This document shows positions 1,661 through 38,564 of a stretch of 41,579 nt of DNA, in pieces. Location of the stretch: positions 1 to 41,579 of the forward strand of contig DUOS01000061.1 in the NCBI GenBank assembly GCA_012838745.1, read 5' to 3'. The position numbers and the translations under genes were made by a program. The notes beneath the pieces were generated by a model, which saw only the letters and a program-made list of their open reading frames with translations, was not told the DNA's origin and did not search any database. Position 1 is the stretch's first letter; each line of letters opens with the position of its first letter. This DNA comes from Treponema sp. Its GTDB lineage: Bacteria; Spirochaetota; Spirochaetia; Treponematales; Treponemataceae.

Positions 1661-3318
1661 ATCGTATAATCTTAGTGGCTGCAGGAAGTGCGGCCACATT
1701 TCTCATTATAGCGCTTTTACTTTCTACCGCTGCCGCGCGTGGTTCCGATCCAAACTTTTGGGATCCGGTTCCCACAGATGAGCTTGCAGAAAGCATTATT
1801 TCGCGTATGACAGACGAGGAAAAACTCGCGCAAGTTCTCATGTTTGGCTGGGCTGGTATGGATCCCTCTCCGCAAGTGGTGGCGTGGGTTGAGCGCCGTT
1901 CACTCGGCAGCATTAAGGTTTTCGGATGGAATACTGACGACACGTTCAAGGTTGCCGAGGCTATTACCCTCCTCCAAGAAAAAGCTGCATCAAACCGATT
2001 TGGGATTCCCCTTTTTGTTGCGACCGACCAAGAAGGTGGCTTAATTCGCCATGTTAAAGGCCGTACTTCGCAAACACCGGGAAACCTTGCTATTGGTGCA
2101 AGTGGTCTTTCCTCGGATGCGTGGTTTTCTGGCTACTATATTAGCCGTGAATTAGCCGCCCTTGGTATTAATCTTAACTTCGCTCCCACTGTGGATTTAT
2201 ATACCGATCACAATTCAACCGTTATCGGTACTCGTTCTTTTGGAGAAGACCCAGAAGGCGCTGGTATCCTCGGAGCTGCCTTTGTTTCAGGTAGCAAAGC
2301 GGCTGGAGTACTTACCACGGCTAAGCATTTCCCCGGTCATGGGCATACAGGATTAGACAGCCACGGTAGTACTCCCATTATTTTTATCGATGAAGAAACA
2401 CTTTTTCAGCGAGAGCTCGTTCCTTTTAAGCGGCTTATAGACGCAGGTGTTCCCGCTATCATGGGCGGTCATCTTTGTTTTCCAAATATTACCGGTTCGC
2501 GCACTCCTGCAACTTTTTCTTCCTTTTTTCTAAAAGATGTTCTTCGCGAAAAGATGGGCTTTACTGGTCTTATTATAACTGACGATATTATGATGAACGG
2601 TGCTACTCATTATGCTGGTAGTGTATCCCGAGTTGTTGAGCTCGCTATTGAAGCCGGAAATAATATTGTTGAGTCTTCCACTACTCCGCATTTTTCTGAT
2701 TCACTATGGGCTAACACTTTGAAAACTATGCGAGAATCGCCGGATTTTAAGGATAAAGTTACTGATTCAGCTCGCCGCGTTTTGCTTGCTAAAATTGATT
2801 ATTTTAAGGACGACAACTCCGTCTATATTTTTCCCGAGATAACTAAAATCGAGGCCCGAGTTCCCGATCCAGATGCCGCTCATTTTTTCCAGTCTCAAGC
2901 AGTCCGTTCGGTTACAGTAATTCGCGACCGCACCCCATCACGCATAGAGGCATCTTCAAAATCGGTGCTCATTGCCTCTCAATTTCCAGCCTTTTTAGAT
3001 GCTGGTAGAAAGCGTTTTCCCAATGCTGAAATTGTTGGTGTAAACGACTATCTACTGCGTATAGCCGGCAATTACGATACCATTGTATTTTGTCTTTCGG
3101 GCGCACAAAGCCTATCTACTTTACAGAACCTCCACCATCTAAAAGACCGTATTATTGTAGTTTCAGCCATGTCTCCCGTATTTCTTTCTGCAGTCCCCTG
3201 GGTAAACAGCGCTATCGCGGTATACAGTTATTCACCATGGTCATTTACCGCAGCCTTTGGCGCCCTTGCAGGAGATTTTACTCCTGGAGGAACCCTTCCC
3301 CTCAAGGATATCGAATGA
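1645..3318 (+). CDS. Glycoside hydrolase family 3, beta-N-acetylhexosaminidase-like, exported
   Basis: 557-aa protein with an N-terminal hydrophobic export or anchor segment (residues 8-30, ending STAAARG), so it should act outside the cytoplasm. The GH3 catalytic domain covers about 40-400: ATDQEGG near 127, the KHFPGHG...DSH block (residues 227-240, containing the His of the NagZ Asp-His dyad) and TDDIMM near 312 with the likely nucleophile Asp. These are hallmarks of NagZ-type beta-N-acetylglucosaminidases that trim peptidoglycan or chitin fragments. The remaining roughly 150 C-terminal residues resemble the extra domain of long, exported NagZ proteins such as the Bacillus type. Start: ATG 1645, or ATG 1627 six codons earlier; both overlap trxB. 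Substrate is inferred from the family. Confidence 0.87.
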   Translation: MRNKLNRIILVAAGSAATFLIIALLLSTAAARGSDPNFWDPVPTDELAESIISRMTDEEKLAQVLMFGWAGMDPSPQVVAWVERRSLGSIKVFGWNTDDTFKVAEAITLLQEKAASNRFGIPLFVATDQEGGLIRHVKGRTSQTPGNLAIGASGLSSDAWFSGYYISRELAALGINLNFAPTVDLYTDHNSTVIGTRSFGEDPEGAGILGAAFVSGSKAAGVLTTAKHFPGHGHTGLDSHGSTPIIFIDEETLFQRELVPFKRLIDAGVPAIMGGHLCFPNITGSRTPATFSSFFLKDVLREKMGFTGLIITDDIMMNGATHYAGSVSRVVELAIEAGNNIVESSTTPHFSDSLWANTLKTMRESPDFKDKVTDSARRVLLAKIDYFKDDNSVYIFPEITKIEARVPDPDAAHFFQSQAVRSVTVIRDRTPSRIEASSKSVLIASQFPAFLDAGRKRFPNAEIVGVNDYLLRIAGNYDTIVFCLSGAQSLSTLQNLHHLKDRIIVVSAMSPVFLSAVPWVNSAIAVYSYSPWSFTAAFGALAGDFTPGGTLPLKDIE

Positions 3319-4211
3319 ACCGTAGAGTTTGCCCTCTTTCTCCTGAAAACTTTGATGAATGCACCGCATTTCTCCTTGCTCACGAACACCGGTGTGTTTC
3401 CCTTGTTTCAAATATTCTGGAAGATGGAAAACCTATTTTTGAAAAAAAGAAATCTTCTTTATTTATAGTTCTTTCGCGTACAGCTGCCGATGGAACCCGA
3501 GTAATCGATGGAGTTATATACCTATCTCCAGGGGGCACGCTTCTTCATCTTCTTTCAGATGCGGTAGAAGCGACCCAATACACCCGTTCTCTACGGTACT
3601 GGCTAAAAGGCCGGCGTATCCATTGTATAATGGGCACAATGGAGGGCAACCTCATTTTAGAGAAGGTTATGTTACAACAATCGTATCGAACACTGGACTA
3701 CGATCTCATGGTTTTAACTAAACCTCCACAGGCCGCAGCTGGGGTCTTGCCCCAGCTACCAGAACCCCATCCCTTAGCTCATAAAAAACCGTCTATACGC
3801 AAAGCCTCTTTGAGGGATGCAAACCTTCTCCTCCCTCTTCAATTAGGCTATGAAAAAGAAGAGGTTCTTGCTCCAGGAAACACTCCGAACACAGCGAGAA
3901 CCCTTACAGCTTTACGCCTTGCGCTGTCTCAGCAGCAGATATATGCCGGATTTTACGGAGATCAGGTAGTCGCTAAGGCAGGAACCAATGCCCGCGGTGT
4001 TAATTGGGATCAACTCGGCGGTATATATACCGATACGAACTATCGTGCCCTCGGCATAGCTTCGGCCCTTGTTGCCCATGTGGTTCGAAAACAAACGAAA
4101 GAAGGAAAAAAAATATGTCTTTTTGTTAAAAATAACAATTTATATGCAAAAAAAGCTTATGCTCGGGTAGGATTTGAACCTGATTCGGCATTTAGAATCG
4201 CTTATTATTGA
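3315..4211 (+). CDS. GNAT-family N-acetyltransferase, two-part
   Basis: 298-aa protein. The C-terminal half (about 165-298) has the GNAT acetyl-CoA fold: the beta4 strand LGGIYTD followed by the pyrophosphate loop NYRALGIASALV, and a late AKKAYARVGFE segment typical of motif B. The N-terminal half looks like a diverged GNAT-like domain. The ATG overlaps the GH3 stop codon (ATGA) and is preceded by AAGGA at a 6-nt spacing, which fixes the start. Last gene of the trxB cluster. The acetylated substrate cannot be told; with a GH3 hexosaminidase next door an amino-sugar or peptide substrate is possible, but that is a guess. Confidence 0.85.
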   Translation: MNRRVCPLSPENFDECTAFLLAHEHRCVSLVSNILEDGKPIFEKKKSSLFIVLSRTAADGTRVIDGVIYLSPGGTLLHLLSDAVEATQYTRSLRYWLKGRRIHCIMGTMEGNLILEKVMLQQSYRTLDYDLMVLTKPPQAAAGVLPQLPEPHPLAHKKPSIRKASLRDANLLLPLQLGYEKEEVLAPGNTPNTARTLTALRLALSQQQIYAGFYGDQVVAKAGTNARGVNWDQLGGIYTDTNYRALGIASALVAHVVRKQTKEGKKICLFVKNNNLYAKKAYARVGFEPDSAFRIAYY

Positions 4212-19743: not shown

Positions 19744-22700
19744 ATGATTTTCTCACGACATTTTCTTTTCAGCATAATTCTATTTTTTTGTGCTGCCCCA
19801 CTAATTTTCTCCTACAATCCGCCTCCTGGAGGCGATTCAACTAACACTTTTTTTTCCCCTGAACTACTCGGTGGTAACTCCAGTGTAACCGGTGGCCCTT
19901 TTGCGGCTTCACTTCCCGGTGAACTCACGGTGAATCCGGCACTTTCAGCTGGAGAACAACGCATTGCACTAGACGCATCTTATGCGTCAATTATTAGTGC
20001 AGGAAACGAATCGGGGATTGGTCACTTAGTTAATATTGGTGCACTCTATCCCACTCGCAAAGGGGTTTTCGGCGGTAGTGTTCACTTTATTACCTCTCCC
20101 TTTATAAGCCTTCCGCTCAATACAGCGGGCTTTTTGCATGGAAGCTTTTCCAAAGACCTTACCGATAGTCTCTATATGGGAGTCGGGTTGCTTGCATCTA
20201 CCGGAGACGGATGGGGGCTCAGTGGAGAACTGGGAATCCTGTATCGTGCAGGTGATATAGCCTTCCTTAAAGATGCAAAAATTGGATTTTCTCTCACAGG
20301 TCTCGGCCGAGCCTTTACTCCAGACACCTGGGGTCTTGACGGCGCTAATCCAACAGGGTATCCGTCTGCCTTTACTCCTCACGCTGGTATTGCTGGAACG
20401 CTCGTGAGTACCAATGATGTAAAACTAGGCATGTCGGTAGATGTTTCAACACCTACCGTTCAAAACTTTGTGCTTGATACCGGTATAGAAGCAGTAATAA
20501 AAGACCGCGTTACCCTGAGAACTGGCTGGAACTTTAATATGAAGGAGAGCATAAAGAAGGCGCAAACCTATATTCCATCTTTTGGAGTAGGTGTAAACCT
20601 CAAACTAAATTCTCCTAAAAAAGACTCCTTCCTTGATCGAAAGGGTTGGGCACAAAGCGAAATGACTCCCTCTCTTGGTGTAAAACCGCTGTACGAAGAC
20701 TTGTACGCAATTGGCGGTGGAGTAAACATTCGTTTAGGCATAACCGACACCAAACCACCGGTTATTTCGCCTGATTATCCTAAACCAGCATATTTTTCAC
20801 CAAATAACGACGGTGTACAAGACGTACTCTTATTTCCGCTGAGTATAAAAGATCAAAGAGACATTAGCGCTTGGTCCTTCGTTGTACAAAACAAATCAGG
20901 CGAGGTCATCAGAACCATTGAAAACAAGGAAGCCCGCCCCGAGATGGAAGATCTCAGGTCTTTCTGGAAACTCGCTACGCGGGTTAAGCAGGGAGTAGCC
21001 CTACCCGAACACATCCGCTGGGATGGTTCAACAGATTCCGGAGAAACTGCCCCGGACGGCACCTACACCTTCTATTTAACAGCAAAAGACGATAATGGTA
21101 ATTTTGCCCAAACCGAAAACTACACGGTCTATATAGACAACACACCTCCCCAGGTAACAGCACAAACTCCTACTGGAGCGAATGCTATGATATTCAGTCC
21201 AGATGGCGACGGAAACAAGGATACGTTTACGATCGCCCTTTCAGGATCTACTGAAGATCTGTGGAAAGCAGAGTTCCTCGATGCCGCCGGTACGGTACTA
21301 CGTACCATTGATGTTTCCGGTAGTCCGAAGGACAGTGTTTGGAATGGTAAAACGGATAGCGGAGCTATAGTACCCGATGGAGTTTATTCTTACCGAATCA
21401 GCGCTATTGACCGCGCAGGAAACTCAGTATCAGAACAAATTTCTAACATTATTGTAGATACCGTAAAACCGGCAATTAATATAACCATTAATACTAACGC
21501 CTTTTCTCCAAATGGAGATGGCAAACTTGACACAGTAAACCTTGAGCCGAGCATGCCAATTACATCGGGGCTTGTAGATTGGTCTATCAGCATAACTAAT
21601 CCCGACGGCACGGCTGTTCGTACCTACACAGGAACTGAAAAGCCTGTTTCCATCGCCTTTGATGGTAAAAATGATTCTGGGAAAACCATTCCCGAGGGCA
21701 ACTACCAAGCGGTGTTTGCAGCCCTTTATACTAACGGGCACGCACCTCAGGTTAAGTCCGCACCATTTGAACTGGACATAACACCACCTGAAGCACAGGT
21801 TCGAGCAAAAGAATCTATATTCTCACCCGTGGGTGATGGAAAACTTGATACTGTAACCTTTATCCAACAAGCGAGCAAAGAAGCCGGCTGGACGGGAGAA
21901 ATATTCGCACTCACTAAGACAGGAGAGCCTCGCGGAGAATCTGTACGAAACTTTGACTTAGGGCCCACTCCTAATCCAAACCTCCTATGGGATGGCCGCG
22001 ACAACGACGGTAAGCTCGCCCAAGACGGCATATACGGCTACCGACTCACTGCGACCGATCGAGCTGGAAACACGGGATATTCCCCTATCGCTAAGGTTGA
22101 ACTAAACACCGAAAAAGCAGATGTAATACTGCAGATCAACACGACAGCCTTTTCTCCAAACGGGGACGGAAGTCAGGATAATATTGTGTTCGCTCCTATT
22201 CTCAAGGCCACTACGCCAACAGACCGTTACAGCCTCAGCATAGCGAATAATTCTGGCACTGTAATAAAAACATTTAGTGGCACGGGATCAATTCCCGCTA
22301 CCATTTCTTGGAACGGTATTATGGATACTGACGGTGCAGCCACGGGAACTCGCGCTCCAGACGGTACCTACCGGGCGATCCTAGTAGTAACACTGATCAA
22401 CGAGCAAACATCACAGTCTGCCTCTCCCGACTTTGTGTTAGACACCGTATTCCCTGCTATAGAAATTGTAGCACCATATACGGTTTTCTCTCCAAACAAG
22501 GATGGCAACCGAGATACCGTACCTATTACTCATAAATCTTCTCAAGAAGATTTGTGGACTGGAACGATAATCTCTGAAAAGAAAACCATTGTACGCACGC
22601 TCTCCTGGCGTGGAGAAGCGGGCGATTTCGAATGGAGTGCCACTGATGATACCGGCAACCGAGTTCCCGATGGAAACTACTCCTATAGCGTTACTAGTAC

Positions 22701-23817
22701 AGACAAAGCTGGAAATAAAACAACGCGCAACCTCAACGGCATTGTCGTGGACTCTCGCATTCCTAAGGGATATATAACAGCAGAATCACCGGCTTTCTCG
22801 CCAAACGGAGACGGTATCCTTGATACACAACGTTTAACCATAGTAACGAGTATTCCAGAAGGGCTTGCTTCTTGGCGAATACGTATACTCTCCGATGGAG
22901 AAAAAGATACCAAGGCTGCAAAAACCTGGGATTCATCAACATCTAATACTCTTCCCGCAACTATTCGCTGGGATGGAAAAGACGATGCAGGCACAACTCT
23001 CTTGGGTAAATACTACGCAGAACTTAACCTCGCCTACCACAAGGGAGACGTGGTAACCGTTCGCTCTACTTCGTTCTTAATTACAACCCAAGCGCCTGAA
23101 CTAAATGTTACGTTACGACCGAGATACTTTAGCCCGGATAATGATGGTATTGACGATGAATTATTTATAGATCTATCTGCGAAATCGGTAGCGTCCTTTG
23201 TAGACTGGTCCTTTGAAATCCGCGAACCTCAGGGAAGCGCTGGAAACATTTTCTGGAAAACTGGTGGAACTAATAAAATTACGGAACGAATTGTCTGGGA
23301 CGGTCGTTCACTCAAGGGTGAACTAGTACAGGCAGCAACCGATTATCCGTTTACCTTCACGGTAAAAGATTCTGTGGGCATGGTATCGGTAGTACGCGGC
23401 TACATCCCCGTAGATGTTCTGGTTATCCGCGATGGCAATCAACTCAAGATTGCTGTTCCATCCATAATTTTTCGCGAAAACGCGGCAGACTTTAACGGGC
23501 TTGATCAAGGAATCGTAGACAAGAACGTTCAAGTTCTCAAACGTATTGCCGAAATAATCAACAAGTTCCGCGATTACCGTATCCAAGTTGAAGGACACGC
23601 AAATAACGTGACCGGAACTCAGAAGGAAGAAGAAACAGAACTGATTCCGCTATCTCGAGAACGTGCACAAGCAGTACGTGAGTTCTTAATCCGTAACTCT
23701 GTAGATGGCTCTCGCCTTTCCACAGTAGGTATGGGAGGAACGAAGCCTGTTACTGAGCGCGCTGACCGCGAAAACTGGTGGAAAAACCGGCGAGTAGAGT
23801 TCATTCTGCTCAAGTAA
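19744..23817 (+). CDS. Giant outer-membrane/periplasmic protein: barrel-like N-terminus, eight Ig-like repeats, OmpA C-terminal domain
   Basis: 1357 aa. Signal peptide 1-23 (ends PLIFS). Residues about 35-335 are Gly-rich amphipathic strands that look like an outer-membrane barrel of the PorV/UPF0164-like sort. Then come eight FlgD/CHU_C-type Ig-like modules, each with a (Y/I/A/V)FSPxxDGxxD motif at about residues 350, 483, 586, 692, 802, 914, 1017 and 1128, and most with a WxGxxDxG...PDGxYxYxxxAxDxAGN motif between. The C-terminal 125 residues are an OmpA-type peptidoglycan-binding domain (GHAN at 1284-1287 where GHTD is usual; LSRERAQAVREFL; NRRVEF end). It should tie the outer membrane to peptidoglycan across the periplasm. 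Single-gene unit between its own promoter and a strong terminator. Function beyond that is inference. Confidence 0.88.
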   Translation: MIFSRHFLFSIILFFCAAPLIFSYNPPPGGDSTNTFFSPELLGGNSSVTGGPFAASLPGELTVNPALSAGEQRIALDASYASIISAGNESGIGHLVNIGALYPTRKGVFGGSVHFITSPFISLPLNTAGFLHGSFSKDLTDSLYMGVGLLASTGDGWGLSGELGILYRAGDIAFLKDAKIGFSLTGLGRAFTPDTWGLDGANPTGYPSAFTPHAGIAGTLVSTNDVKLGMSVDVSTPTVQNFVLDTGIEAVIKDRVTLRTGWNFNMKESIKKAQTYIPSFGVGVNLKLNSPKKDSFLDRKGWAQSEMTPSLGVKPLYEDLYAIGGGVNIRLGITDTKPPVISPDYPKPAYFSPNNDGVQDVLLFPLSIKDQRDISAWSFVVQNKSGEVIRTIENKEARPEMEDLRSFWKLATRVKQGVALPEHIRWDGSTDSGETAPDGTYTFYLTAKDDNGNFAQTENYTVYIDNTPPQVTAQTPTGANAMIFSPDGDGNKDTFTIALSGSTEDLWKAEFLDAAGTVLRTIDVSGSPKDSVWNGKTDSGAIVPDGVYSYRISAIDRAGNSVSEQISNIIVDTVKPAINITINTNAFSPNGDGKLDTVNLEPSMPITSGLVDWSISITNPDGTAVRTYTGTEKPVSIAFDGKNDSGKTIPEGNYQAVFAALYTNGHAPQVKSAPFELDITPPEAQVRAKESIFSPVGDGKLDTVTFIQQASKEAGWTGEIFALTKTGEPRGESVRNFDLGPTPNPNLLWDGRDNDGKLAQDGIYGYRLTATDRAGNTGYSPIAKVELNTEKADVILQINTTAFSPNGDGSQDNIVFAPILKATTPTDRYSLSIANNSGTVIKTFSGTGSIPATISWNGIMDTDGAATGTRAPDGTYRAILVVTLINEQTSQSASPDFVLDTVFPAIEIVAPYTVFSPNKDGNRDTVPITHKSSQEDLWTGTIISEKKTIVRTLSWRGEAGDFEWSATDDTGNRVPDGNYSYSVTSTDKAGNKTTRNLNGIVVDSRIPKGYITAESPAFSPNGDGILDTQRLTIVTSIPEGLASWRIRILSDGEKDTKAAKTWDSSTSNTLPATIRWDGKDDAGTTLLGKYYAELNLAYHKGDVVTVRSTSFLITTQAPELNVTLRPRYFSPDNDGIDDELFIDLSAKSVASFVDWSFEIREPQGSAGNIFWKTGGTNKITERIVWDGRSLKGELVQAATDYPFTFTVKDSVGMVSVVRGYIPVDVLVIRDGNQLKIAVPSIIFRENAADFNGLDQGIVDKNVQVLKRIAEIINKFRDYRIQVEGHANNVTGTQKEEETELIPLSRERAQAVREFLIRNSVDGSRLSTVGMGGTKPVTERADRENWWKNRRVEFILLK
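20791..23161 (+). repeat. Eight coding repeats of an Ig-like module
   Basis: The FSPNGDG-like motif recurs eight times, with intervals of 133, 103, 106, 110, 112, 103 and 111 residues. The DNA copies (for example around 21499, 22147 and 22789, TTTTCTCCAAA-type) are diverged, so the array is old and not an unstable tandem repeat. The Asp/Gly-rich loops look able to bind calcium. Confidence 0.85.
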
Positions 23818-24828: not shown

Positions 24829-26178
24829 ATGGTCATTCTCACGCTTAACTGCGGCAGTTCTTCAGCTAAATACCAGGTTTTCAACTGGACAACACGAGAT
24901 GTTATCGCATCGGGTGTTGTGGAGCGCGTAACCCAGGAAGGCGGTTCTATTACTCACATTGCACCGGGAAAACCCGAATATACGATGAAGCATGAGTGTC
25001 CCAACCACACCATAGCAGTTGAATTAATTATTCGAACCCTCACCGATCCAGAAGTTGGCGTTATCTCCGGCATGAACGTAATAAAAGCCGTTGGGCACCG
25101 TGTGCTTCACGGGGGAACTAAGTTTATTAAATCAGTAATCGTTACCCCGCAAGTTCTAGAAACATTCCGCGAAGTACAAGATCTTGGCCCATTACATAAT
25201 CCGGCTAATATCATGGGAATTGAGGCTGCTCAAAAAGTTATGCCCAATGTTCCCCATTGCGCCGTGATGGATACAGCTTGGCACCAAACCATGCCAGACA
25301 CTAGTTTTATGTATGCAGTTCCCTACGAGTGGTACGAAAACTACGCAGTACGCCGATACGGCTTTCATGGAACAAGCTTTTTATATACAGCAAAACGCGC
25401 CTCGGTACTTCTCGGTAAAAAACCTGAAGATACCAATGTCATTATTGCTCATATTGGAAATGGTGCATCCATGTGCTGTGTAAAAAATGGTAAGTGCCTC
25501 GATACATCCATGGGGCTTACCCCGCTCGAAGGCCTTGTTATGGGAACTCGCTCGGGAGACTGTGATCCAGCGCTTTCGTTTTACATGATGCGAAAGGCCG
25601 GCATGAGCGTTGAAGAAATAGATACTGCTCTCAATAAAAAGTCTGGACTTCTCGGTATTACCGGCAAATATGCAGACCGACGAGACGTAACAAAAGCATA
25701 TCAAGATGGAGATAAACGAGCGGCACTCGCGTTCAATATGGAAACATACCGGGTGCGAAAATATATCGGTTCATATATGGCCGCAATGGGAGAGGCTCCC
25801 GATGCCCTTGTGTTTACCGCCGGTGTTGGAGAATTTCATGCCCCCATGCGAGAAGGTTTTTGCAAAAACCTTGAACACATGGGAATAATACTAGACCCAG
25901 TTAAAAACGACCTTGCTCGCACACGAAACGCAGAAACGTGCATTAGTGCCGACAATTCCCCTATCAAGGTTTTTGTTATTCCCACTGATGAAGAACTCGT
26001 TATGACCGAAGATGCTTACGCACTCATGAAGGGCACCTACGATGTTCACACTAATTTCACCTATTCGTTCCAGTCGGCTGACTATGAAAACAAGGGAAGA
26101 AAAGAAAGCCTCAAGGCAGATTTAGAAAAAACCCCAGGGCTAGCTGATATAATCGTAAAAATACCAGGAAAAAAATAA
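24829..26178 (+). CDS. ackA: Acetate kinase with C-terminal extension
   Basis: 449-aa enzyme that makes ATP and acetate from acetyl phosphate and ADP, the ATP-yielding end of acetate fermentation. Family blocks: NCGSSSAKY (7-15), GHRVLHGG near 88, [10 protein letters not shown] near 146, [35 protein letters not shown] and FTAGVGE. Most acetate kinases are near 400 aa; here about 45 polar residues follow the usual end ([12 protein letters not shown]), a tail I believe is typical of treponemal enzymes. AGGAG 7 nt before the ATG. The PfkB-type kinase follows after 21 bp. Confidence 0.97.
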
Positions 26179-27333: not shown

Positions 27334-28575
27334 ATGAAACAAGTACTGATCATCGACGAATCAAGCATTTTCCGTGATTACATTAGTGAAAAGCTCGAAT
27401 CCCATAATGTTGAAATTACTGTCTGTGTTGGAAAGCTTGATAGTTTATCCAAGATGCGTAGCCTTCTCCCTGATCTTGCAATCATAGATTACGCCTCAAG
27501 CAAAGAGTTTCTTTTCGAACTTCTTGAAGAAAAGAGCCGCGATCCTAATGCAAAAAAAATACCAATAATTCTTATGGCACAAGAACTTGATACCAAAATT
27601 GTTACCAATCTAGCTTCGTTTGGAGTCCGTAAGATTATTCCAAAACCTATAAAAATAGATCAGCTTTTCCTTGCTATCTCTCATTTTCTATCAATCGACT
27701 TTAATATAGATGTTACCCCCTGCATTTTGGAAGCTCGGCTAAACGACAACGTCATTTTTATTGAAATTGCCCAAGGTCTTAATCGTGAAAAGTTCGGATT
27801 ACTTAAATACCGGATTAGAGAACTCATCGAACTATACAAACTCGCAGTGCCTAAAGTCCTGGTTATGATGACCGACCTAGCGCTATCCTTTGCTGATGGT
27901 GCTAATCTTGAATTGCTCATGGCAAGCATTCTTTCTGATCATCGAATACACAACCGAAATATCAAAATTTTAACCATGGATAGTTTTACTCGTGAATTTA
28001 TCGAAGGAACAAAAGAATACCGAGAAATTGAAGTATTGGATAACCTCACCAAAGCTATAGATTCTCTTATAAAAGATTCCGTCCCAGGAGATACAGTCTC
28101 CTCTGTAATTTCAGAAAAAATATTAAGTGTTGGAACCACGAACGGTGCTCCGGCAAACTTCGAAATGCGTTTCAAGTCTGAGCTGGAAACACTGCGCTCG
28201 GTTGCTAAAGACATTCACATCGCCGTAATCGACGATGATGTAGTAATACGCAATATACTGGCTAAAACATTTCAAGCAATAAATGCAAAAGTAACTCTTT
28301 TTGAATCCGGAATAGCCTTTCTTGCTCAAAGCAATTCAAAGCAGTTTGATCTCGTCTTTCTCGATCTTATTATGCCCGAAATGAACGGATTCCAGGTATT
28401 GCAAAGACTTCATGATAAAAATTTTACCAGCCCAATTATAGTGCTTTCTGCAGTAAGTAAACGCGAAGCCGTTATGAAAGTTCTTTCGTCCGGTGTAAAA
28501 AGCTATCTCATAAAGCCACTTGAGCCGGAAACTCTCCTAAGAAAGACCATAGAGGTTTTAAAGGCAGCAATCTGA
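27334..28575 (+). CDS. REC-STAS-like-REC signalling protein
   Basis: 413 aa, three domains. REC1 (1-122): D8-E9, D52 in LAIIDYAS and K104 in IIPKPIK are kept, but the switch Thr/Ser position is hydrophobic (IILMAQE). Middle (about 135-245): a beta-alpha pattern like STAS domains, with PKVLVMMTDLALSFADGANLELL in the place of DxSGVxFxDSSGLxxL and a closing segment FIEGTKEYREIEVLDNL. REC2 (295-413): D300-D302, phosphoacceptor D344 in FLDLIMPEMNG, S372 and K394. No DNA-binding output. Lies 1 bp before the hybrid kinase, its likely partner. The N-terminus MKQVLIIDES is canonical, so the ATG is secure. Confidence 0.85.
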   Translation: MKQVLIIDESSIFRDYISEKLESHNVEITVCVGKLDSLSKMRSLLPDLAIIDYASSKEFLFELLEEKSRDPNAKKIPIILMAQELDTKIVTNLASFGVRKIIPKPIKIDQLFLAISHFLSIDFNIDVTPCILEARLNDNVIFIEIAQGLNREKFGLLKYRIRELIELYKLAVPKVLVMMTDLALSFADGANLELLMASILSDHRIHNRNIKILTMDSFTREFIEGTKEYREIEVLDNLTKAIDSLIKDSVPGDTVSSVISEKILSVGTTNGAPANFEMRFKSELETLRSVAKDIHIAVIDDDVVIRNILAKTFQAINAKVTLFESGIAFLAQSNSKQFDLVFLDLIMPEMNGFQVLQRLHDKNFTSPIIVLSAVSKREAVMKVLSSGVKSYLIKPLEPETLLRKTIEVLKAAI

Positions 28576-28576
28576 T

Positions 28577-31009
28577 ATGTCAAACATAGACAACTCTGCA
28601 GACGATTATCTGAGGCGATCGCGCATCCCTTACTTGGTTCTTGATGAAACAGGCATTCCCATTGAATGGAACGCCTATGCTGAAGCCTTGTTATCTATAT
28701 CTGGGGAAAGCCCCACAGGTAAGGGAAAACTTCCTTCAATCCGTAAGCTTATTTTAGAACGAACCCATCCAGGCGATACCGAAAAGTTTGATGCATTTAT
28801 GGCGGGGGAACAGGATTTTTTTGCCTATGATTTTACGCGAAAAAATGAAACAGAAGATGCTTCTTGGTACCGGATGAATGTGTACCGTCAAGAAAAAAAC
28901 CGTTTTTTTGCCCTTATAGACGACATTACTCCGCAAATAATCAAAGAAACGCATCTAATCGAAGCGAAAGAAAACGCAGAAAAAGCAAGCCTTAACCGGA
29001 GTCAGTTTCTTGCAAACATCAGCCATGAAATCCGCACACCTATCCAGACCATTATCGGCATGGGGGAACTACTGGCTGATACTGAACTTGATGAAGAACA
29101 AACAGAATATGCACGGCAAGTACAGTTTAGTGCCGATGTCTTGCTTACCCTTATTAACGACATACTCGATATTTCTAAGGTAGAAGTTGGAAAGTTAAAA
29201 ATAGAATCTATTGATTTTGATCCAGTCGATGTAATTGAACGCACGGTAGATCTCGTTTCGATGGAAGCCTATAAAAAGGGCCTAGAAGTTAATATTGATA
29301 TCAGCTCTGATATTCCTGCTGCTATTGTTGGAGACCCGCACCGGCTACAACAAGTAATACTCAATCTGGTAAAAAATGCAGTAAAATTTACTGAATCCGG
29401 AGAGATCCTCCTACGAGCTTTTCCCGGTACCGGAGATCCTGAAAGATCGAGCATCAGTCGACTAGACCAAATTCTGTACGTCGAAGTAACCGATACTGGA
29501 ATTGGGCTAGAAGAAGCCGTTATGAAAAAACTTTTTACAGACTTTTTTCAAGCCGATAGGTCTACAACAAGAAAATACGGTGGAACAGGGCTGGGGCTTT
29601 CTATTTCACGGAATATCGTTTCACTTATGGGTGGAAAAATAGGTGTTTCGGCAAATGATCCACGGGGCAGCCGCTTTTGGTTTGAAATACCCCTAATCCC
29701 CGCAGAAACACAACCGACCCCGAGAAAGCTTCTCTTATCTAGTCAAACTCGGTTCTTACTCGTGGACGATAATCCCCGTACACTCGACATACTTACCGGT
29801 ATGCTCGCCGCACACGGATACTATCAAGTATCTCGGGCTGATTCTGGCAAACAAGCTCTTTCCCTCATGCATCTATCCAACCACGCAGGAGCACCATTTA
29901 ATATACTTTTTATTGACATGGTAATGCCCGATATGGACGGATGGCGGCTTGCTGCGGAAATTAATAAAGACCCTGAAATAAACCATGCGCAGCTATATCT
30001 CATGGTACCCGAAGGTAGCTTTGGCGCAGAAGCGAAGATGAAGCTCCTTGACTGGTTCAACGGCTATTTATATAAACCGATAAAAAGACGCCTCCTCTAT
30101 GATTTACTTCGCGATCATTCACAAGCATCTCTTGATCTTGAAGTCCTAGAGGAACTAGAACCCGTTGAAGATGACGTTCCCATACCGGAACCATATCCTA
30201 ATACGGCTGAACCACCAGACCTCGCTTCTTCTGTCATCATACAACCACAAAAAAGCAAGCCTGAATCAGAAACTGTTGCAAAATACCAAGAAGATATCGC
30301 CGCAGGACTCACTATTTTAGTAGCAGAAGACCACCCGGTTAATCGCCGCTTACTAGTTATTTTTTTGGAAAAAGCTGGAGCCACAGTAATCCAAGCAGTA
30401 GATGGTCAGGAAGCAATAGAAGCCATGCAGGTAAATGATATTGATCTCATTTTTATGGATATTCAAATGCCCCGTAAAAATGGATATGAGGCCGCTGCTT
30501 GGATACGTAAAAAAGGTATAAAAACGCCTATAATCGCCTGCACAGCCAGTGCTCAGGAAAATGAAAGAGAAAAGTGCCTTGCCTGTGGCATGAACGAAAT
30601 ACTACCCAAACCCTTCAAGCGTATAGATGTTTCAAAACTTTTAACGCGTTTTGCTCCAAAAAAAGACAAAAAACAAGAGGATCCCCTTGTTTTTAATTCA
30701 ACTCAGTTCTTTGATATTATGATGGGAGACACCGACGCCATGGCTTCCCTTGCCCGAGAATATACGGCACAAACAGACGAACACCTAAAGATTTTAGAAA
30801 TCGACCTAGCAGAAAATAACATTTCTGCAATACGGGCAACCGCACATTTAATTAAAGGAAGCTCTCTTTCTATTACCGCAAACCGGGTAGCAGAAATTGC
30901 AGAAGAAATTGAATTAAACCCCGAAGGAGATATTCAAATACAGGTTTTTCGCATACACGATGCCTTTATTTCACTCAAAAAACGTTTTACCCAGGAGGGT
31001 TATATATGA
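28577..31009 (+). CDS. Cytoplasmic hybrid histidine kinase, PAS-HisKA-HATPase-REC-REC-HPt
   Basis: 810 aa with no membrane segment or signal peptide. Order: PAS-like sensor (about 12-125); HisKA with H150 in FLANISHEIRTP; HATPase_c with N-box NLVKNAVKF (263-271), DTGIG (306-310) and GGTGLGLSIS (335-344); REC1 (about 392-515) with D397-D398, D447, K500 but no Thr/Ser at the switch position (LYLMVPEG); REC2 (about 578-693) with E584-D585, D628, T656 and K678; HPt with H757 in ATAHLIKGSS. This supports an internal phosphorelay with output to separate receivers, such as the upstream REC-STAS-REC protein. The only purine-rich site (AAAGG) is 13 nt upstream, so coupling to the previous gene is likely. 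Confidence 0.94.
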   Translation: MSNIDNSADDYLRRSRIPYLVLDETGIPIEWNAYAEALLSISGESPTGKGKLPSIRKLILERTHPGDTEKFDAFMAGEQDFFAYDFTRKNETEDASWYRMNVYRQEKNRFFALIDDITPQIIKETHLIEAKENAEKASLNRSQFLANISHEIRTPIQTIIGMGELLADTELDEEQTEYARQVQFSADVLLTLINDILDISKVEVGKLKIESIDFDPVDVIERTVDLVSMEAYKKGLEVNIDISSDIPAAIVGDPHRLQQVILNLVKNAVKFTESGEILLRAFPGTGDPERSSISRLDQILYVEVTDTGIGLEEAVMKKLFTDFFQADRSTTRKYGGTGLGLSISRNIVSLMGGKIGVSANDPRGSRFWFEIPLIPAETQPTPRKLLLSSQTRFLLVDDNPRTLDILTGMLAAHGYYQVSRADSGKQALSLMHLSNHAGAPFNILFIDMVMPDMDGWRLAAEINKDPEINHAQLYLMVPEGSFGAEAKMKLLDWFNGYLYKPIKRRLLYDLLRDHSQASLDLEVLEELEPVEDDVPIPEPYPNTAEPPDLASSVIIQPQKSKPESETVAKYQEDIAAGLTILVAEDHPVNRRLLVIFLEKAGATVIQAVDGQEAIEAMQVNDIDLIFMDIQMPRKNGYEAAAWIRKKGIKTPIIACTASAQENEREKCLACGMNEILPKPFKRIDVSKLLTRFAPKKDKKQEDPLVFNSTQFFDIMMGDTDAMASLAREYTAQTDEHLKILEIDLAENNISAIRATAHLIKGSSLSITANRVAEIAEEIELNPEGDIQIQVFRIHDAFISLKKRFTQEGYI

Positions 31010-31878
31010 GACTCGCTTCCTACCATATTCACACAACATTCTGCGACGGCTTAGACACACCCGAACGCATGGTTAAGGCAGCCATCAAAGCTAAGGTCCA
31101 AGAATTAGGCTTTAGCGCTCATAGCGCTTGGCCTCTTACTACTGAGTGGCATCTTTCAACAACTAGATTTGCAGAATATATCGATACTGTGCGCAGCCTG
31201 CAAGAAAAGCACAAAAAACGAATCCGAATACTTTGCGGATTCGAGGCGGACTATATTCCGGGTGTTACTGCCCCAGACTCGTCGATCTACAAACAATTTT
31301 CGCCAGATTATCTAATAGGATCAATCCACATGCTACTATCTCCTTCACGCAAAACTTCTTTCGGATTATGGTCTGTAGACGGGGCCGTAGAAGACGTTGC
31401 ACACGGCCTTGCACAGGTGTTCAGGGGCAACGGTAAGCGTGCAGTACAGTTATACTGGCATACTGTTCGAGAAATGGTTTCTAGCTGTGATTTTGATATT
31501 GTTGGTCACCTTGATCTAATACGTAAAAGAAACGGTGTATTGCACTTCTTCGACGAAAATGAGGGTTGGTATAAACGTGAACTCGCTGAAACTGTTCGAA
31601 CCATCGCCCGTTCAGGAAAAATTGTTGAACTAAACACTGGCGGCATGGCTCGAAAAGCTATTGACGGGCTGTATCCTTCAGACACCTTACTTTCCCTGCT
31701 TTATAAAAGAAATGTTCCGGTTACCCTTTCTTCCGACGCCCACTGCGCCGATGATTTGGTTTTTGGCTACGACAGCGCGTTAGCGGCTGCTCGGAGAGCA
31801 GGGTACCAGGAAATTCATTTCTTAGGGCGCGATGGGATCGAGGCGGTTAAAATCGATACCGTTGGTAGCAGTAGCTAA
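31006..31878 (+). CDS. PHP-family phosphoesterase, histidinol-phosphatase-like
   Basis: 290 aa. The PHP metal site is complete: HIHTTFCDG (7-15), GFEADY near 83, IGSIHML near 104, GHLDLIRK near 166 and SSDAHCADD near 244. It is closest in layout to HisJ/HisK histidinol-phosphatases, but no other his gene is present and it is cotranscribed with a signalling pair, so another phosphorylated substrate is possible. ATG overlaps the kinase stop (ATGA) with GGAGGG 6 nt upstream. Its stop overlaps the convergent dksA-like stop within CTAA. Confidence 0.82.
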   Translation: MRLASYHIHTTFCDGLDTPERMVKAAIKAKVQELGFSAHSAWPLTTEWHLSTTRFAEYIDTVRSLQEKHKKRIRILCGFEADYIPGVTAPDSSIYKQFSPDYLIGSIHMLLSPSRKTSFGLWSVDGAVEDVAHGLAQVFRGNGKRAVQLYWHTVREMVSSCDFDIVGHLDLIRKRNGVLHFFDENEGWYKRELAETVRTIARSGKIVELNTGGMARKAIDGLYPSDTLLSLLYKRNVPVTLSSDAHCADDLVFGYDSALAAARRAGYQEIHFLGRDGIEAVKIDTVGSSS

Positions 31879-33141: not shown

Positions 33142-33630
33142 CTATTTCAAAATAACCCAAGTTGAACCCGTCCCACCTTCGGTTTTCGTAGAAAATCCTG
33201 ACTCACCAGCATGCGGATGTTTTTCTAGAAAATGCTGAACCATCTTACGCAACACTGGGTCTTCAGGCGAATGCGTCCCCTTTCCATGTATTATAAGAAC
33301 CTTTTGCAAATTACTGCGAACACAGTCCGCAAAAAATGATTCTAAGCGAATCCACGCGTCATCTTGTGTAAGACCATGCAAATCGATTTCCGCTTCACTT
33401 TTGATTGATCTAAGCCGGCGTCGCCGTTCATGTGGAGCTTCCTCGTTTTCCTCCGACTCCGCATCCTTATCGGTTACGCCGTACCGACGCATCCAAACAT
33501 CTAGGGGGTGAGCCTGGGGAAGTGGCTGCGTATCTTCTGCAGAAGATTGCATTTCTGGATTATTTTTAGATTTACCACGCGGCTTTGCCGTTTCTTTTTC
33601 CCATTCATCAAGTATGTTACCAAAGTCCAT
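33142..33630 (-). CDS. Smr-domain protein
   Basis: 162 aa. A charged, low-complexity N-terminal half (1-80) precedes an Smr domain: IDLHGLTQDDAW near 83, IIHGKGTHS near 115 and a Gly-rich TEGGTGSTWV end. Smr domains are nucleases or nucleic-acid binders (MutS2 C-terminus; SmrB-like proteins cut mRNA at collided ribosomes). The length matches small stand-alone Smr proteins. AGGA 5 nt before the ATG; the start overlaps the batD end by 14 bp, so it is the last gene of the Bat operon. Confidence 0.9.
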   Translation of the reverse strand: MDFGNILDEWEKETAKPRGKSKNNPEMQSSAEDTQPLPQAHPLDVWMRRYGVTDKDAESEENEEAPHERRRRLRSIKSEAEIDLHGLTQDDAWIRLESFFADCVRSNLQKVLIIHGKGTHSPEDPVLRKMVQHFLEKHPHAGESGFSTKTEGGTGSTWVILK

Positions 33631-35041
33631 AAAATCCTGCCGTTGTATAAATAATGAGTGAATCTTCTTCTACCCAGCCTTCTAAGGCAGAGGGAAGCCG
33701 AATATAGCACCAACTAGCAATTTGGTTAAGTACCACCGCAAGCGAGCCTTCGGGAATTGTGCTAATTACTGCTGCCGTTTGTTCTGGAATTTGCCGAAGG
33801 GGACCACTCTTGCAAACAGCAGCAGGTTTTAAGGCGTATGTGAATAAAGTAAAACAGACAACAAAACAAATAAAGAAACAAACAGTCACACACGCTACAA
33901 GAACCTTAAAAATTGTTGTGCAGGTTGCCGAGCGCTTTCTAAAAGGAAGTACAATCAATAACAAGATAACTGACGCTGCCAATGCAATGAAAACTAGTTG
34001 TATCCTGGGAAGTGAGGGAACTGGCATAGTCCCCGCAAAACCGAGAGCCGATTCTGCGTCTTTACGGATACTCCGATATTTCTTTGGAAAAAACGCAGTG
34101 TGCTCAAGATGGCGCAAAGCGGCTAAAGATTCAGCATAGCTTCCCGCATCCCAGCTGCTGACAACTGAGGCAACTTGAACTGCGGTGCTTTCACGCAGAG
34201 AATCAGGTGCCGGCACCACCAGTATGGGTGTTTCGTTATCAAAAACCGGAAGTGCCGATTCGCTAAAAGCTTCTACAATAAGTGCGGAAACAGAAGTATC
34301 AGATTCAAGGTGGATTGCTGGTAAAACGGTGCTCGTACTTCGCCGTGTTCCAGCAGTTGCAGTAGTACCGTCTCGGCTTCGGTATTCAAGGCGAGCGAAG
34401 GGAAACACCTGCTCCCCCGAAAAAAGCGGTGTCCACAGGAAAGCTGCTATTCCTTCCCAAGCACCAACGCTATCTACTGTTTTGGGCAGGGTTGGTGAAA
34501 GATTTTTAAGAAGGGCATTTTTTGGTGCAGGGCAATCTAAAGAAATGAGCTCATAAATATACCGTGCTTCTAATCGCAGAGATACTTCGCTTCCAATGCG
34601 AACGGGTTCTGAGGCTACTAAAACCCACCGAATTTCTCCGTTTCCTGCGGTATCTCGAACATGTGCGCGTATTTCCAGCGGAGCTAAGACCTCCTCTACG
34701 CCTTTGTAAGTTACAACAAACGGACCAAGGGAATAAGTTCCCGGGGTTTCAGCGAGCCATTCCTGAATAAAAACAACAGATTCTACACGATCTTCTAAAA
34801 AAAACGAGGGGTCCTTTTTACTTCTTTTTTCCTTCTGTGAGGAAACAAGAGAAAGAGCCTGAGGGATATTTTCGATAAATAGAGTTGTTTGCGCAGGACT
34901 AGCAGGAAACACTTGAATTTCTATAACGAGTGATTCTCCCGTGTAACAGTCTGTTACTGGAGCTACTAATTCAACTTGAAAAGCAACCGCTAAAACAGGC
35001 AGGAAAAGAATAATTGCAAGACAGACTATAATTCGCTTCAT
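33617..35041 (-). CDS. BatD-like membrane protein with C-terminal SH3-like domain
   Basis: 474 aa. Signal peptide 1-21 (ends AVAF). An outside-facing beta-rich region (about 22-270) starts QVELVAPVTDCYTGESLVIEIQV, the BatD/oxygen-tolerance pattern of binding-like Ig strands. A TPR-like helical patch (about 300-335) follows, then two membrane helices (about 342-362 and 372-398), then an SH3-like domain (about 404-468: VCKSGPLRQIP...IPEGSLAVVL...WCYIRLPSALEGWVEEDSL). Start ATG 35041; an in-frame ATG at 35095 lies inside the previous gene and would precede the signal peptide. Works with the adjacent BatA/BatB in the membrane. Confidence 0.85.
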   Translation of the reverse strand: MKRIIVCLAIILFLPVLAVAFQVELVAPVTDCYTGESLVIEIQVFPASPAQTTLFIENIPQALSLVSSQKEKRSKKDPSFFLEDRVESVVFIQEWLAETPGTYSLGPFVVTYKGVEEVLAPLEIRAHVRDTAGNGEIRWVLVASEPVRIGSEVSLRLEARYIYELISLDCPAPKNALLKNLSPTLPKTVDSVGAWEGIAAFLWTPLFSGEQVFPFARLEYRSRDGTTATAGTRRSTSTVLPAIHLESDTSVSALIVEAFSESALPVFDNETPILVVPAPDSLRESTAVQVASVVSSWDAGSYAESLAALRHLEHTAFFPKKYRSIRKDAESALGFAGTMPVPSLPRIQLVFIALAASVILLLIVLPFRKRSATCTTIFKVLVACVTVCFFICFVVCFTLFTYALKPAAVCKSGPLRQIPEQTAAVISTIPEGSLAVVLNQIASWCYIRLPSALEGWVEEDSLIIYTTAGFYGLW

Positions 35042-35043
35042 AC

Positions 35044-35691
35044 TCAATAATCTTCCACACCGTAAGCGGGTTGTTCCGCCTGCTGATTTTTCCATCGTTC
35101 CTGTTCCTTTCGTCGCACTAGATTAAACAGAATTTCTGACTCACCGCTTTTTTCATGGGTTTCACTCACTCCCGGTGGAGCTGTTGATCCACCAGACTCT
35201 CGCGTTAGCATACTACGATGGCATAATTCTAGATTTATTTTTGAGTCCATGGCAGAAGGATCCAGAGTAAGATTCTTTTTAAAGTAATCTGCCGCCTGTG
35301 TGTACTTTCCTTTACGATATGCTGCAATCCCAATCTGATACCATATTCCCGCAAGAATTTCTTCGGAAGTATTATCAGATATTTCTGCCAAACGAAGAAG
35401 AGCTGCATCATACTCTTCTTGAGCAAGATACGTTGCAGCAAGACCATACACCGCGTAATCACGTACAGCAAGATCACCTGCAATCTCTGCAGCCTCTGCG
35501 GCTTTAAGAAAGCTGGCAGTTGCACTATTCCAATCTTGGCGTGCCCAGGAAAAGACCCCGGAAAGAATGTTAAAACGGTCGGAGTTCCCAGAAGAGCACG
35601 ACACTAATAATGCTAAAAAAACAAGGAATAGCAGTTGAATTAAATTAAAGTGAAAGGTTGTGGATTTTCGTTTACTCACGACTTTTTCCAT
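35044..35691 (-). CDS. TPR lipoprotein of the Bat operon (BatC/BatE type)
   Basis: 215 aa. Lipoprotein signal: basic N-terminus, hydrophobic stretch and a lipobox LLVSC with the acylated Cys near residue 32. At least three TPR-like helix pairs follow (about 45-150), including ALLRLAEI and YTQAADYFKKNLTLDP. The C-terminus is charged and Pro/Ser-rich. Anchored to the periplasmic face and suited to protein binding. Overlaps batB by 16 bp, with GGGGGA before the ATG; ends 2 bp before batD starts. Confidence 0.88.
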   Translation of the reverse strand: MEKVVSKRKSTTFHFNLIQLLFLVFLALLVSCSSGNSDRFNILSGVFSWARQDWNSATASFLKAAEAAEIAGDLAVRDYAVYGLAATYLAQEEYDAALLRLAEISDNTSEEILAGIWYQIGIAAYRKGKYTQAADYFKKNLTLDPSAMDSKINLELCHRSMLTRESGGSTAPPGVSETHEKSGESEILFNLVRRKEQERWKNQQAEQPAYGVEDY

Positions 35692-36653
35692 ACGCTTCCC
35701 CCTATCGCCAATGCTAAAGAAAAAGACAAGAGCGCTCCAATCAAAAAGAGAGGATACCGTTTAACAATTTTTGCGGTATGAACTGTTTTTCTACCACTAA
35801 GGGAATCTGATTGTATCTGTGTGATAATTGAAAGTGCCGACCCCGGCTCTGATGCAAAAATATACCGGCTTTCCCCACCAGCAACTTGTGCTCCTTCTTT
35901 TAAAAGGCCTTCATTGAGCTGAGTACGGTGCATACGAGTTTTATCTGGACCAGGAAATGCATCAAGTTCAGCCCCGGATTTCGTACCAACACCGAGAGTT
36001 ATCAAGGTAATTCCTTTTGCCTTAAGCTCGGATGCGGCATCAGCAATAGAACCAGCTGTTTCTTCCCCATCGGAAAAAAGAAGAATATACCGTGAAGCTG
36101 CTTGTGCCGAAGGGAAGGCTTTTACAGCAGTATTCAATGCAGAGCCAGGAGAAGAACCAGGAACCGAAATCATATCGGGATTTGCAATACTGAGCATATC
36201 CATTAAAGCCCGCCGGTCAGTTGTAAGCGGGATGGAAAGAACTGCGTCCCCTTTAAATAAAACAAGGCCACAGGGAATACCCTGGAGTTCTTCGGCTAAA
36301 AGAGAAATATACTGAGCTGCAAAAGAGAGGCGGTCTGGTGAAATATCAGAAACAGTCATGCTTCGTGAAATATCCAATGCAAATATAATTGTTGAACCCT
36401 GTTCACGCACCAGTTCAAACCGTGTTCCCCACTGCGGCCCGGAAGCTGCGAGGGATAAGAAGACCCATGCAAGAGAAAATAAAATGGTACGAAAATATAT
36501 AGAAGCAGAAAAAAAGCGTCGACCTAGCCCTGTATGACCAGAAATTAACAACTGCTCACATATTCGCTTGAAACGATATATCACAAAAATAGCAGCAGGA
36601 ATTACAGCAAAAGTCGCAAGTAATACTAGAGGCCTTTCAAAATATTTATTCAT
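35676..36653 (-). CDS. batB: BatB-like von Willebrand A membrane protein
   Basis: 325 aa. Membrane helices near 8-26, 52-71 and at the C-terminus (about 300-320) flank a vWA domain with a metal site DISRS (94-98), a later SSPGSALNT and LFSDGEE. The MIDAS is complete enough to bind a divalent cation and a protein ligand. Start ATG 36653 overlaps the batA stop (ATGA); an ATG 12 codons upstream is inside batA. Paralogue of the preceding BatA. Exact role of Bat proteins (stress or oxygen tolerance, envelope) is not settled. Confidence 0.9.
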   Translation of the reverse strand: MNKYFERPLVLLATFAVIPAAIFVIYRFKRICEQLLISGHTGLGRRFFSASIYFRTILFSLAWVFLSLAASGPQWGTRFELVREQGSTIIFALDISRSMTVSDISPDRLSFAAQYISLLAEELQGIPCGLVLFKGDAVLSIPLTTDRRALMDMLSIANPDMISVPGSSPGSALNTAVKAFPSAQAASRYILLFSDGEETAGSIADAASELKAKGITLITLGVGTKSGAELDAFPGPDKTRMHRTQLNEGLLKEGAQVAGGESRYIFASEPGSALSIITQIQSDSLSGRKTVHTAKIVKRYPLFLIGALLSFSLALAIGGSVWKKS

Positions 36654-37651
36654 AAAACAGCCCCCATAAAAACTCGTCGAAATACCCAAGATACTGCAGC
36701 AAGAATGAGTGCAAAAATTAGAATATCATTAGCAAGAGACGTTTCAATCGTACGTGTCCAGGAAGATCGCACCACCGGAATTGAGCGGTCGAGGATATCG
36801 AAAATATCCTGAAGCCCTTTGCGGTCTTGCGCGGAAACGAAAGTGCCACCACCAGCGGTGGCTATGGCAATGAGGGCGGCTTCATTATAATCGGATTCAA
36901 GAACGCCTGAATAATGTGTTCCAGAAATTGGATCGAGATACTCAACCGGCACAGAACCCCGGGATCCTATTCCTAAGACGTACAAGTCTATTCCACGAGA
37001 AACAAGTAAGCGTGCAGCTGTTTCAGGATGAACTTCGCCGGCATTATTTTCGCCGTCGGTTATTAAAATCACCGTAGCAGGATTTTCGCTATAAGAAACA
37101 GTATGGGCAGCAGCAACGGTAATTCCCAGACCGAGGGCAGTCCCGTCACCAAACTCTCCTATGGTAAGCGCATCAAGGCGTTCAAGAAAAGTTTTATGAT
37201 CAGCAGTGGGGGGAACTAAAAGAGCCGCGGTGGAACCCAAGGCAGAAAGACCAAAGGCTGTGCCTGGTCTATCGGAAACAAAGGAACGGATATATTGACG
37301 ACCCGTTTCAAGACGGGTAAGCGTGTCCATATCCTTAGCCGCCATAGACGGGCTCACGTCAAGAACAAAGAGCACGGTATTTCCCGTACCAGAAAAAATA
37401 GATTCACGATGTATTTTTACCGGCCCAGCGAGGGCAAATATCACACAAAGAAAAGTCAAATATAGTGAAGAGATAGAAACTACGCGTAAAAAGCGAATCC
37501 AAGGGGAACGCCATACCAGTGGCTGGCCTCCCCAATCTCGAAGAATCAAAGGAAACGCCGGCTTGCTAAGCATTCCTGTTTTACGAAACCATAAAAAGAT
37601 TGGAATGAGAAAAAGCAGCAACAAACTTGCAGGGCGTTCAAGATATATCAT
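36650..37651 (-). CDS. batA: BatA-like von Willebrand A membrane protein
   Basis: 333 aa. N-terminal helices (about 6-22 and 55-76), a vWA domain with MIDAS DVSPS (98-102), GDGTALG and ITDGENN, and a C-terminal helix (about 308-327). The N-terminus (LERPASLLLLFLIPIFLWF) is the usual BatA/aerotolerance pattern. GGAGGATA is 12 nt before the ATG, within the previous gene. Fourth gene of the operon after moxR. Confidence 0.92.
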   Translation of the reverse strand: MIYLERPASLLLLFLIPIFLWFRKTGMLSKPAFPLILRDWGGQPLVWRSPWIRFLRVVSISSLYLTFLCVIFALAGPVKIHRESIFSGTGNTVLFVLDVSPSMAAKDMDTLTRLETGRQYIRSFVSDRPGTAFGLSALGSTAALLVPPTADHKTFLERLDALTIGEFGDGTALGLGITVAAAHTVSYSENPATVILITDGENNAGEVHPETAARLLVSRGIDLYVLGIGSRGSVPVEYLDPISGTHYSGVLESDYNEAALIAIATAGGGTFVSAQDRKGLQDIFDILDRSIPVVRSSWTRTIETSLANDILIFALILAAVSWVFRRVFMGAVL

Positions 37652-38564
37652 AGGTAGCTATATCCTCCAAAGTCCTCGAAAGCTCACGTACTGAATCAAG
37701 TAGCCCTTCTTGGGATACCCCAGTATCAAGCCCACCAAAGCGAGCCCGGTCGATTTGTGTAAACAGGTCGCGTATCATTCGTGAAGCGTGATCCCATTTT
37801 TTAGTGGCGGGGTGTTCAGTTATCGCAGGGTGCTCAACAACAACAGCAGCAAGTAGAGAAAGCTCTTTGCCCGTTGCAGCTACATAGGCGTCATCCTTTC
37901 CAGCAAAATACAACCCAAGGTAGCGTCTTAGGCTAAGAGAAAGCCGAGAAAACCACTGCGTACTATCCATTCTATGCCGCCGAGAAAGCATATTAAGCTC
38001 ACGAGAAAGAAATTTAACACGTCGGGCTACCCTTCTGCGGGCCGGACTAGAAATAAGCCATGTGCGGAACTTGCCTGATAAAAACCAAAGAAGCCCTGCT
38101 ACAAAAAAGAAAGCGATAATTCCACCATACAAAAGGTAGGTTGTTCCCGGAATAAGCAAGGGAGAGCGCGAGGGTGCGGGAGTCGTAATTCCATCGCGGT
38201 CTAGCAAGGATGCTATTGTTACCGTAGGCGGAATTATCTGATGATCCTCCACTGTAATAGGCGGTAATTCTAAACTCCCAGATTTCCAAGGAATAAACTG
38301 GATGCGTATCTCTGCATCACCTTCCCGGTACCGCACTCGTACTTCATCAATCCGTGCCGTATTGGTCTGGGGAATATCTTCTTTAGGCAAAAGCCGTTCA
38401 AAGCCCATTTCAAACATGGTGTTGGGAATTACCGCAGTAAAAGAAACTACCGCAGTATCTCCAACATACACATCTCGGGGAACAAGCACACCGGCGCTTG
38501 TTGTTTCGGCAAAGGTAAGCGTACAAAAAACAAGAAATACAAAGAATAAACACCACTGTTTCAT
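37638..38564 (-). CDS. Membrane protein of the Bat operon (DUF4381/BatD-N-like)
   Basis: 308 aa. Signal peptide 1-19, a beta-rich external region (about 25-130, VLVPRDVYVGDTAVVSF like a shortened BatD N-domain), one membrane helix (about 142-165) and a basic, helical cytoplasmic region. It occupies the slot between DUF58 and BatA where MoxR clusters often have a DUF4381-like protein. I cannot assign a reaction. GGAG 8-9 nt before the ATG; ATGA overlap with DUF58 gene. Confidence 0.78.
   Translation of the reverse strand: MKQWCLFFVFLVFCTLTFAETTSAGVLVPRDVYVGDTAVVSFTAVIPNTMFEMGFERLLPKEDIPQTNTARIDEVRVRYREGDAEIRIQFIPWKSGSLELPPITVEDHQIIPPTVTIASLLDRDGITTPAPSRSPLLIPGTTYLLYGGIIAFFFVAGLLWFLSGKFRTWLISSPARRRVARRVKFLSRELNMLSRRHRMDSTQWFSRLSLSLRRYLGLYFAGKDDAYVAATGKELSLLAAVVVEHPAITEHPATKKWDHASRMIRDLFTQIDRARFGGLDTGVSQEGLLDSVRELSRTLEDIATYDIS

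Follow-up and report, generated by a model that had tools for sequence, protein, structure and literature searches.

A two-receiver regulator beside a hybrid kinase

The window, the whole stretch of 41,579 nucleotides of Treponema sp. DNA that was analysed, contains a gene for a 413-residue regulator in which two receivers recognised by Pfam (REC1 and REC2) enclose a stretch without a Pfam match. The gene is followed by that of a hybrid kinase, the ATG of which lies one base after the regulator's TGA stop, and then by a gene for a PHP-domain protein. A PfkB-type gene, also assigned with Pfam, is located upstream. The features of the locus are:

27334..28575 (+), REC-STAS-REC regulator, exact open reading frame, 413 residues
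27343..27678 (+), REC1, residues 4-115; Pfam E 3.5e-9 with this piece scanned alone
27697..28083 (+), middle domain of predicted STAS fold, residues 122-250; model and fold search, weak sequence support
27781..27792 (+), N150-R-E-K153 in the β2-α1 loop; residue counts in the family
27886..27888 (+), S185, directly N-terminal to helix α2, possible alternative phosphosite
27892..27909 (+), ADGANL, residues 187-192, in place of the DSSG of STAS antagonists
28084..28212 (+), poorly conserved linker, residues 251-293; pLDDT <50 at 249-273 in the whole-protein model
28219..28542 (+), REC2, residues 296-403; Pfam E 4.1e-33 in the whole protein
28577..31009 (+), hybrid kinase of 810 residues: HisKA 141-203, HATPase_c 252-373, two REC, HPt 726-780 (Pfam)
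30752..30916 (+), HPt domain of the kinase, proposed phosphate donor to D344; PF01627 E 6.5e-8
31006..31878 (+), PHP-domain protein, overlapping the kinase gene by 4 bases (Pfam)

The kinase thus combines the HisKA, ATPase, receiver and HPt modules of an HPt phosphorelay protein (ArcB/BarA-like), and the adjacent HPt-bearing hybrid kinase named by the first-pass annotation, an earlier reading of this DNA, is indeed present. The Pfam scan of the adjacent genes (PfkB, hybrid kinase, PHP) indicated no partner for the regulator. Other matches listed for the regulator in its own genome span the REC2 region only. Further upstream, the open reading frame at 24829-26178 was read as an acetate kinase, and several other genomes also have acetate kinase-like genes close to the regulator.

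The two receivers differ in their active-site residues, as had been suspected from the window alone. REC2 carries the canonical set (D300/D301, D344, S372, Y391, K394), and in the family D344 is kept in 156/160 members, S372 in 150 of 158 with Thr in a further 8, and K394 in 158/161. In REC1, D8/E9, D52 and K104 are present, but the set is incomplete because A82 occupies the position of the switch threonine of CheY. This position is G in 82, A in 44, S in 30, T in 5 and E in 2 of 163 members, and is hence G or A in 126/163. D8 is kept in 142/163, D52 in 135/163 (with E in 18 and N in 7) and K104 in 152/163, but the second acid varies across the family. REC1 may play an ancillary part, its switch being atypical.

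Predicted fold and missing phosphoserine motif of the middle domain

By sequence, the assignment of the middle domain to STAS is weak. Scanned alone against Pfam, the domain from the window gave no match, and no STAS match was found in 34 orthologs. TIGR00377 was matched by 10 of the 34 (E limit 10), but the best value, E 6.4e-4, was no better than that of a chance-looking match to EccA in the same scan (E 3.5e-4). Among six distant cousins of the family that were scanned, PF01740 was matched in one (L156; E 0.0018, 18.5 bits against a cut-off of 22.6). The domain therefore scores below the cut-offs of the curated STAS families (PF01740/TIGR00377) and is not a member by the Pfam threshold. When aligned with hhalign to 12 ordinary spirochaete STAS sequences, three query sets gave pairwise P values of 2.1e-5, 4e-4 and 0.021; an earlier, faulty STAS set had given P 0.4. 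In sequence searches of the PDB, SpoIIAA was the top match for a profile of diverse members, at E 0.025 only, and with close orthologs it fell to E 0.9-1, behind unrelated matches.

Modelled alone with AlphaFold (34 orthologous domains), the middle domain reached a pLDDT of 94.5 and displayed the β-β-α-β-α-β-α-β-α order of the STAS fold: β1 131-137, β2 140-146, α1 151-168, β3 174-180, α2 186-199, β4 210-214, α3 217-225, β5 233-235 and α4 238-247. A Foldseek search with this model returned STAS proteins at all of ranks 1-26 (best E 3.6e-4), with E <0.001 in two rows only. With VIA-align, SpoIIAA came first (1til_B; Z 12.3, rmsd 2.9 Å over 115 residues), and STAS chains of the stressosome were among the close matches (6jhk_A, Z 11.2; 7b0u, Z 11.1). 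The middle domain is thus predicted to have a STAS fold, as the first-pass annotation had proposed on the order of its elements. A non-STAS fold was rejected on the fold search; sequence evidence alone would not have been decisive. The whole-protein model (pTM 0.61) does not give the arrangement of the domains.

In serine-regulated antagonists such as SpoIIAA and RsbV, the phosphorylated residue belongs to a DSSG motif, the first Ser of which we take to be Ser58 of SpoIIAA. The regulator has ADGANL at 187-192 instead. The first Ser of DSSG falls on A187 in HMMER alignments against SpoIIAA chains and in hhalign with diverse members, and on G189 in hhalign with the other two query sets, as it did in the original reading. 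Ser or Thr is uncommon at both positions (7/165 members at 187, 28/164 at 189). The intervening residue, position 188, is D in 150/164 members; D188 was considered as a phosphoserine-aligned, built-in acidic mimic and rejected, the alignments giving A187 or G189. In contrast, S185, directly before predicted helix α2, is Ser or Thr in 129/165 members, and the phosphoserine of SpoIIAA presumably sits near the start of α2 and hence near the equivalent of S185, although none of the HMMER or hhalign alignments places the DSSG serine there. Of the first-pass description, the domain order, the predicted fold and the missing DSSG therefore stand. The aligned residue is not Ser/Thr, but the conclusion that Ser phosphorylation is not possible there was too strong, since the alignments leave a two-residue uncertainty in the register and α2 is preceded by a conserved Ser/Thr.

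Conservation and genomic context in spirochaetes

The regulator belongs to a conserved, apparently unnamed family that is widespread in Treponema-like spirochaetes. At E 0.001 its middle domain was matched in 123/392 sampled genomes of the spirochaete phylum, a few of them by weak cousins only. The orthologous region (rows with E <=1e-50) occurs in 42/59 genomes, its own included; among these 42, G033 has it only as pieces without REC2 and G048 as two pieces. Length is uniform (411-431 residues in 70 aligned rows). Conservation of the STAS domain equals that of the receivers: in 70 orthologs, the columns carry on average 2.62 bits of information for residues 121-250, 2.53 bits for REC1 and 2.60 bits for REC2. 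N150 is kept in 165/165 members and K153 in 164/165. A decayed STAS domain was rejected on account of this equal conservation. A mobile origin was likewise rejected, as phages and plasmids yielded no match to the middle domain at E 1e-3.

In the scan of genome contigs, the best 80 loci fell into orthologs with spirochaete titles, scoring from about 240 bits upwards, and another group of 34 loci from other phyla at about 46-75 bits. The middle-domain profile, which beyond spirochaetes was run on these fetched loci only, matched 0/34. Distant cousins are longer (467-573 residues): STAS is separated from the last receiver by about 105-150 residues, against about 45 in the core family, or a third receiver is present. 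One cousin (L148:3431-5149) has three receivers in the order REC-STAS-REC-REC. Three others (L153, L156, L157) carry between STAS and the last receiver a 'VYDxxGxLIK' segment without a Pfam match that is similar, in our view, to the N-terminal domain found in some HD-GYP proteins. Middle domains below 80 bits, that is, the cousins, were excluded from residue counts, context counts and the tree.

The association with the kinase is frequent but not universal. In 90 of 162 distinct members REC2 co-occurs with a complete, HPt-bearing kinase downstream; this count includes L045, whose REC2 is interrupted by a frame break. Another 14 distinct members retain REC2 next to a kinase without a fused HPt; these include L006, probably a broken frame, and L247. 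Pfam was used to verify that HPt is absent from seven kinases and present in one control (L146). In L247 the kinase reading frame (1978-4134) ends after the last receiver and a separate 112-residue frame matches the HPt profile, a split relay. Twenty members whose kinase is cut by the end of the stretch and two broken frames (L016, L187) were left out of the kinase counts. No downstream kinase was found at 30 of 134 scorable loci, those with <700 bases downstream not being scored, and 29 of these 30 have REC2; the no-kinase group among the 162 members includes L096, at a contig end. D344 is D in 31/31 rows without the kinase. A PHP gene is next in line at 78/134 scorable loci, and at 20 of the 30 no-kinase loci it directly follows the regulator. 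One of the 30, L159, has a kinase-like reading frame upstream instead.

When G048 and 13 genomes of genus group g3, all without the neighbouring kinase gene, were searched for the kinase at E 1e-60, it was found in 0/14; the remote ortholog in G033 scored 2.9e-129 in this search. The kinase as an obligatory partner was rejected on this result. Group g3 includes a member with a middle domain identical to that of Treponema parvum L030.

REC2 is missing from two lineages, L142-L144 (one genus group) and L042, both without an HPt; three further cases, L045 with a frame break and L044 and L141 at contig ends, were not scored as losses. L142-L144 are reduced to REC1-STAS and have a kinase that lacks HPt by Pfam; L142 itself, at a contig end, begins within the middle domain and comes from the same genome as L141. 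L042 is also reduced to REC1-STAS, with no kinase found and PHP after 4 bases. On the tree, which excludes rows of <180 residues and hence L142, kinase presence changed at least 13 times, HPt at least 7 times and REC2 at least twice. Both losses of REC2 fall where HPt is absent, as a relay predicts, but the association carries no statistical weight because there is only one independent pair. A strict dependence between HPt and REC2 was rejected: members without REC2 lack HPt, whereas the reverse often fails.

Possible control of the STAS domain

As the usual phosphoserine motif is absent, the receivers may control the STAS module instead. The regulator would then be a two-component output protein whose STAS effector is governed by the flanking receivers and not by a classical DSSG serine, a reading to which a probability of roughly 0.45 is assigned, slightly short of even. 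In the scheme considered, the downstream hybrid kinase would autophosphorylate and relay phosphate, by way of the receiver and HPt within the kinase, to D344 in REC2. Once phosphorylated, REC2 would alter the interaction of the STAS domain with a protein partner. The partner site may be the conserved end that includes D126, T128/P129, G148-N150-K153 and region 185-191. By fold topology these residues probably lie on the phosphosite-bearing end of the sheet, the end at which SpoIIAA meets SpoIIAB. An ordinary STAS gene that adjoins an RsbW-like gene in the same genome is a possible target. The first-pass annotation had suggested that the STAS domain could bind a partner, perhaps an anti-sigma factor, constitutively and be gated by D52 or D344.

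The downstream kinase would be the usual, not the only possible, input. Because the regulator persists without it, other donors may feed the regulator in some species; acetyl phosphate is conceivable, if speculative, given the acetate kinase-like genes nearby in several genomes. The frequent survival of REC2 after its supposed HPt donor (14 + 29 members) counts against a strict relay. A narrower form of receiver control, in which a STAS domain free of serine control is switched by aspartyl phosphorylation of the flanking receivers, with neither an RsbW kinase nor a PP2C phosphatase setting its state, is doubtful. If true, a phosphorelay would drive an anti-sigma-antagonist-like output within one polypeptide.

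The likeness to SpoIIAA and RsbV lies in the predicted fold, with SpoIIAA chains as the best structural matches, and in weak sequence links. The regulator departs from them in having its STAS domain fused between two receivers, in lacking DSSG and in scoring below the family cut-offs. Serine control may nevertheless persist, since S185 is so often Ser or Thr: S185 (or, in some relatives, S/T189) would have taken over as the phosphosite, with the receivers as extra inputs to an otherwise ordinary partner switch. The genome has RsbW-like candidate kinases among 8 HATPase_c_2 matches, 4 of which are above the cut-off; one of the 8 lies beside the ordinary STAS gene. However, no RsbW/SpoIIAB-type anti-sigma kinase was recognised with Pfam among the adjacent window genes and no alignment puts the DSSG serine at 185, so this possibility is judged unlikely. 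The STAS domain could also serve as an assembly module, with oligomerisation modulated by the receivers, as in the stressosome proteins RsbR and RsbS, which share a STAS domain with a regulatory role and are close in fold; retention of the gene without its kinase would suit such a function. Receivers on both sides of STAS set the regulator apart from these proteins, none of the adjacent window genes was recognised as RsbS- or RsbT-like, and the conserved residues appear, from conservation and model topology, to lie mostly at one end of the sheet. An assembly role is accordingly rated quite unlikely.

The match to SpoIIAA crystallised with SpoIIAB and the tight pairing of the regulator and kinase genes raise the further idea that the target of STAS is the GHKL ATPase domain of the neighbouring kinase, by analogy with the action of SpoIIAA on SpoIIAB, which would give a feedback on the phosphorelay. 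The persistence of the regulator in genomes that gave no match for the kinase, and the 20 loci with PHP directly after the regulator and no kinase between, make this improbable. The regulator might instead be mainly a phosphate store or branch point in which two receivers, one with an atypical switch, compete for HPt and STAS is a structural spacer. A spacer should be less conserved than the receivers and should not keep N150 in every member, and the chance of this being correct is also put very low.

The proposed receiver control of the STAS domain has partial parallels. RssB and PhyR are response regulators that take part in sigma-factor control through protein-binding outputs; their output domains are PP2C-like and sigma-like, respectively, whereas that of the regulator has a predicted STAS fold. 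RssB is the best NCBIfam match of the receivers, far below the cut-off (98 versus 329 bits). RsbY is presumably another REC-controlled regulator of partner switching. In reports on RsfR of Mycobacterium smegmatis, SypE and PA3346, phosphorelay input reaches partner switching through a receiver protein that acts by phosphatase and/or kinase activity (PP2C or RsbW-like) on a separate STAS protein (PMC10950880, PMC12826045, PMC8256260). In contrast to these cases, the STAS domain of the regulator is itself fused to receivers. The conserved fusion would be a shortcut between partner switching and two-component phosphorelays, which matters because a phosphatase or kinase intermediate joins the two systems in the three examples. 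No description of REC-STAS-REC was found in searches of open-licence papers, in agreement with the first-pass remark that the arrangement was not familiar as a named family.

Elsewhere in the window, a 1357-residue reading frame (19744-23817) has, as read by eye, repeated 'FSPNGDG'-like segments and an OmpA-like C terminus, and a cluster on the reverse strand (33617-38564, -) reads by eye like a Bat operon (von Willebrand A/TPR/BatD-like).
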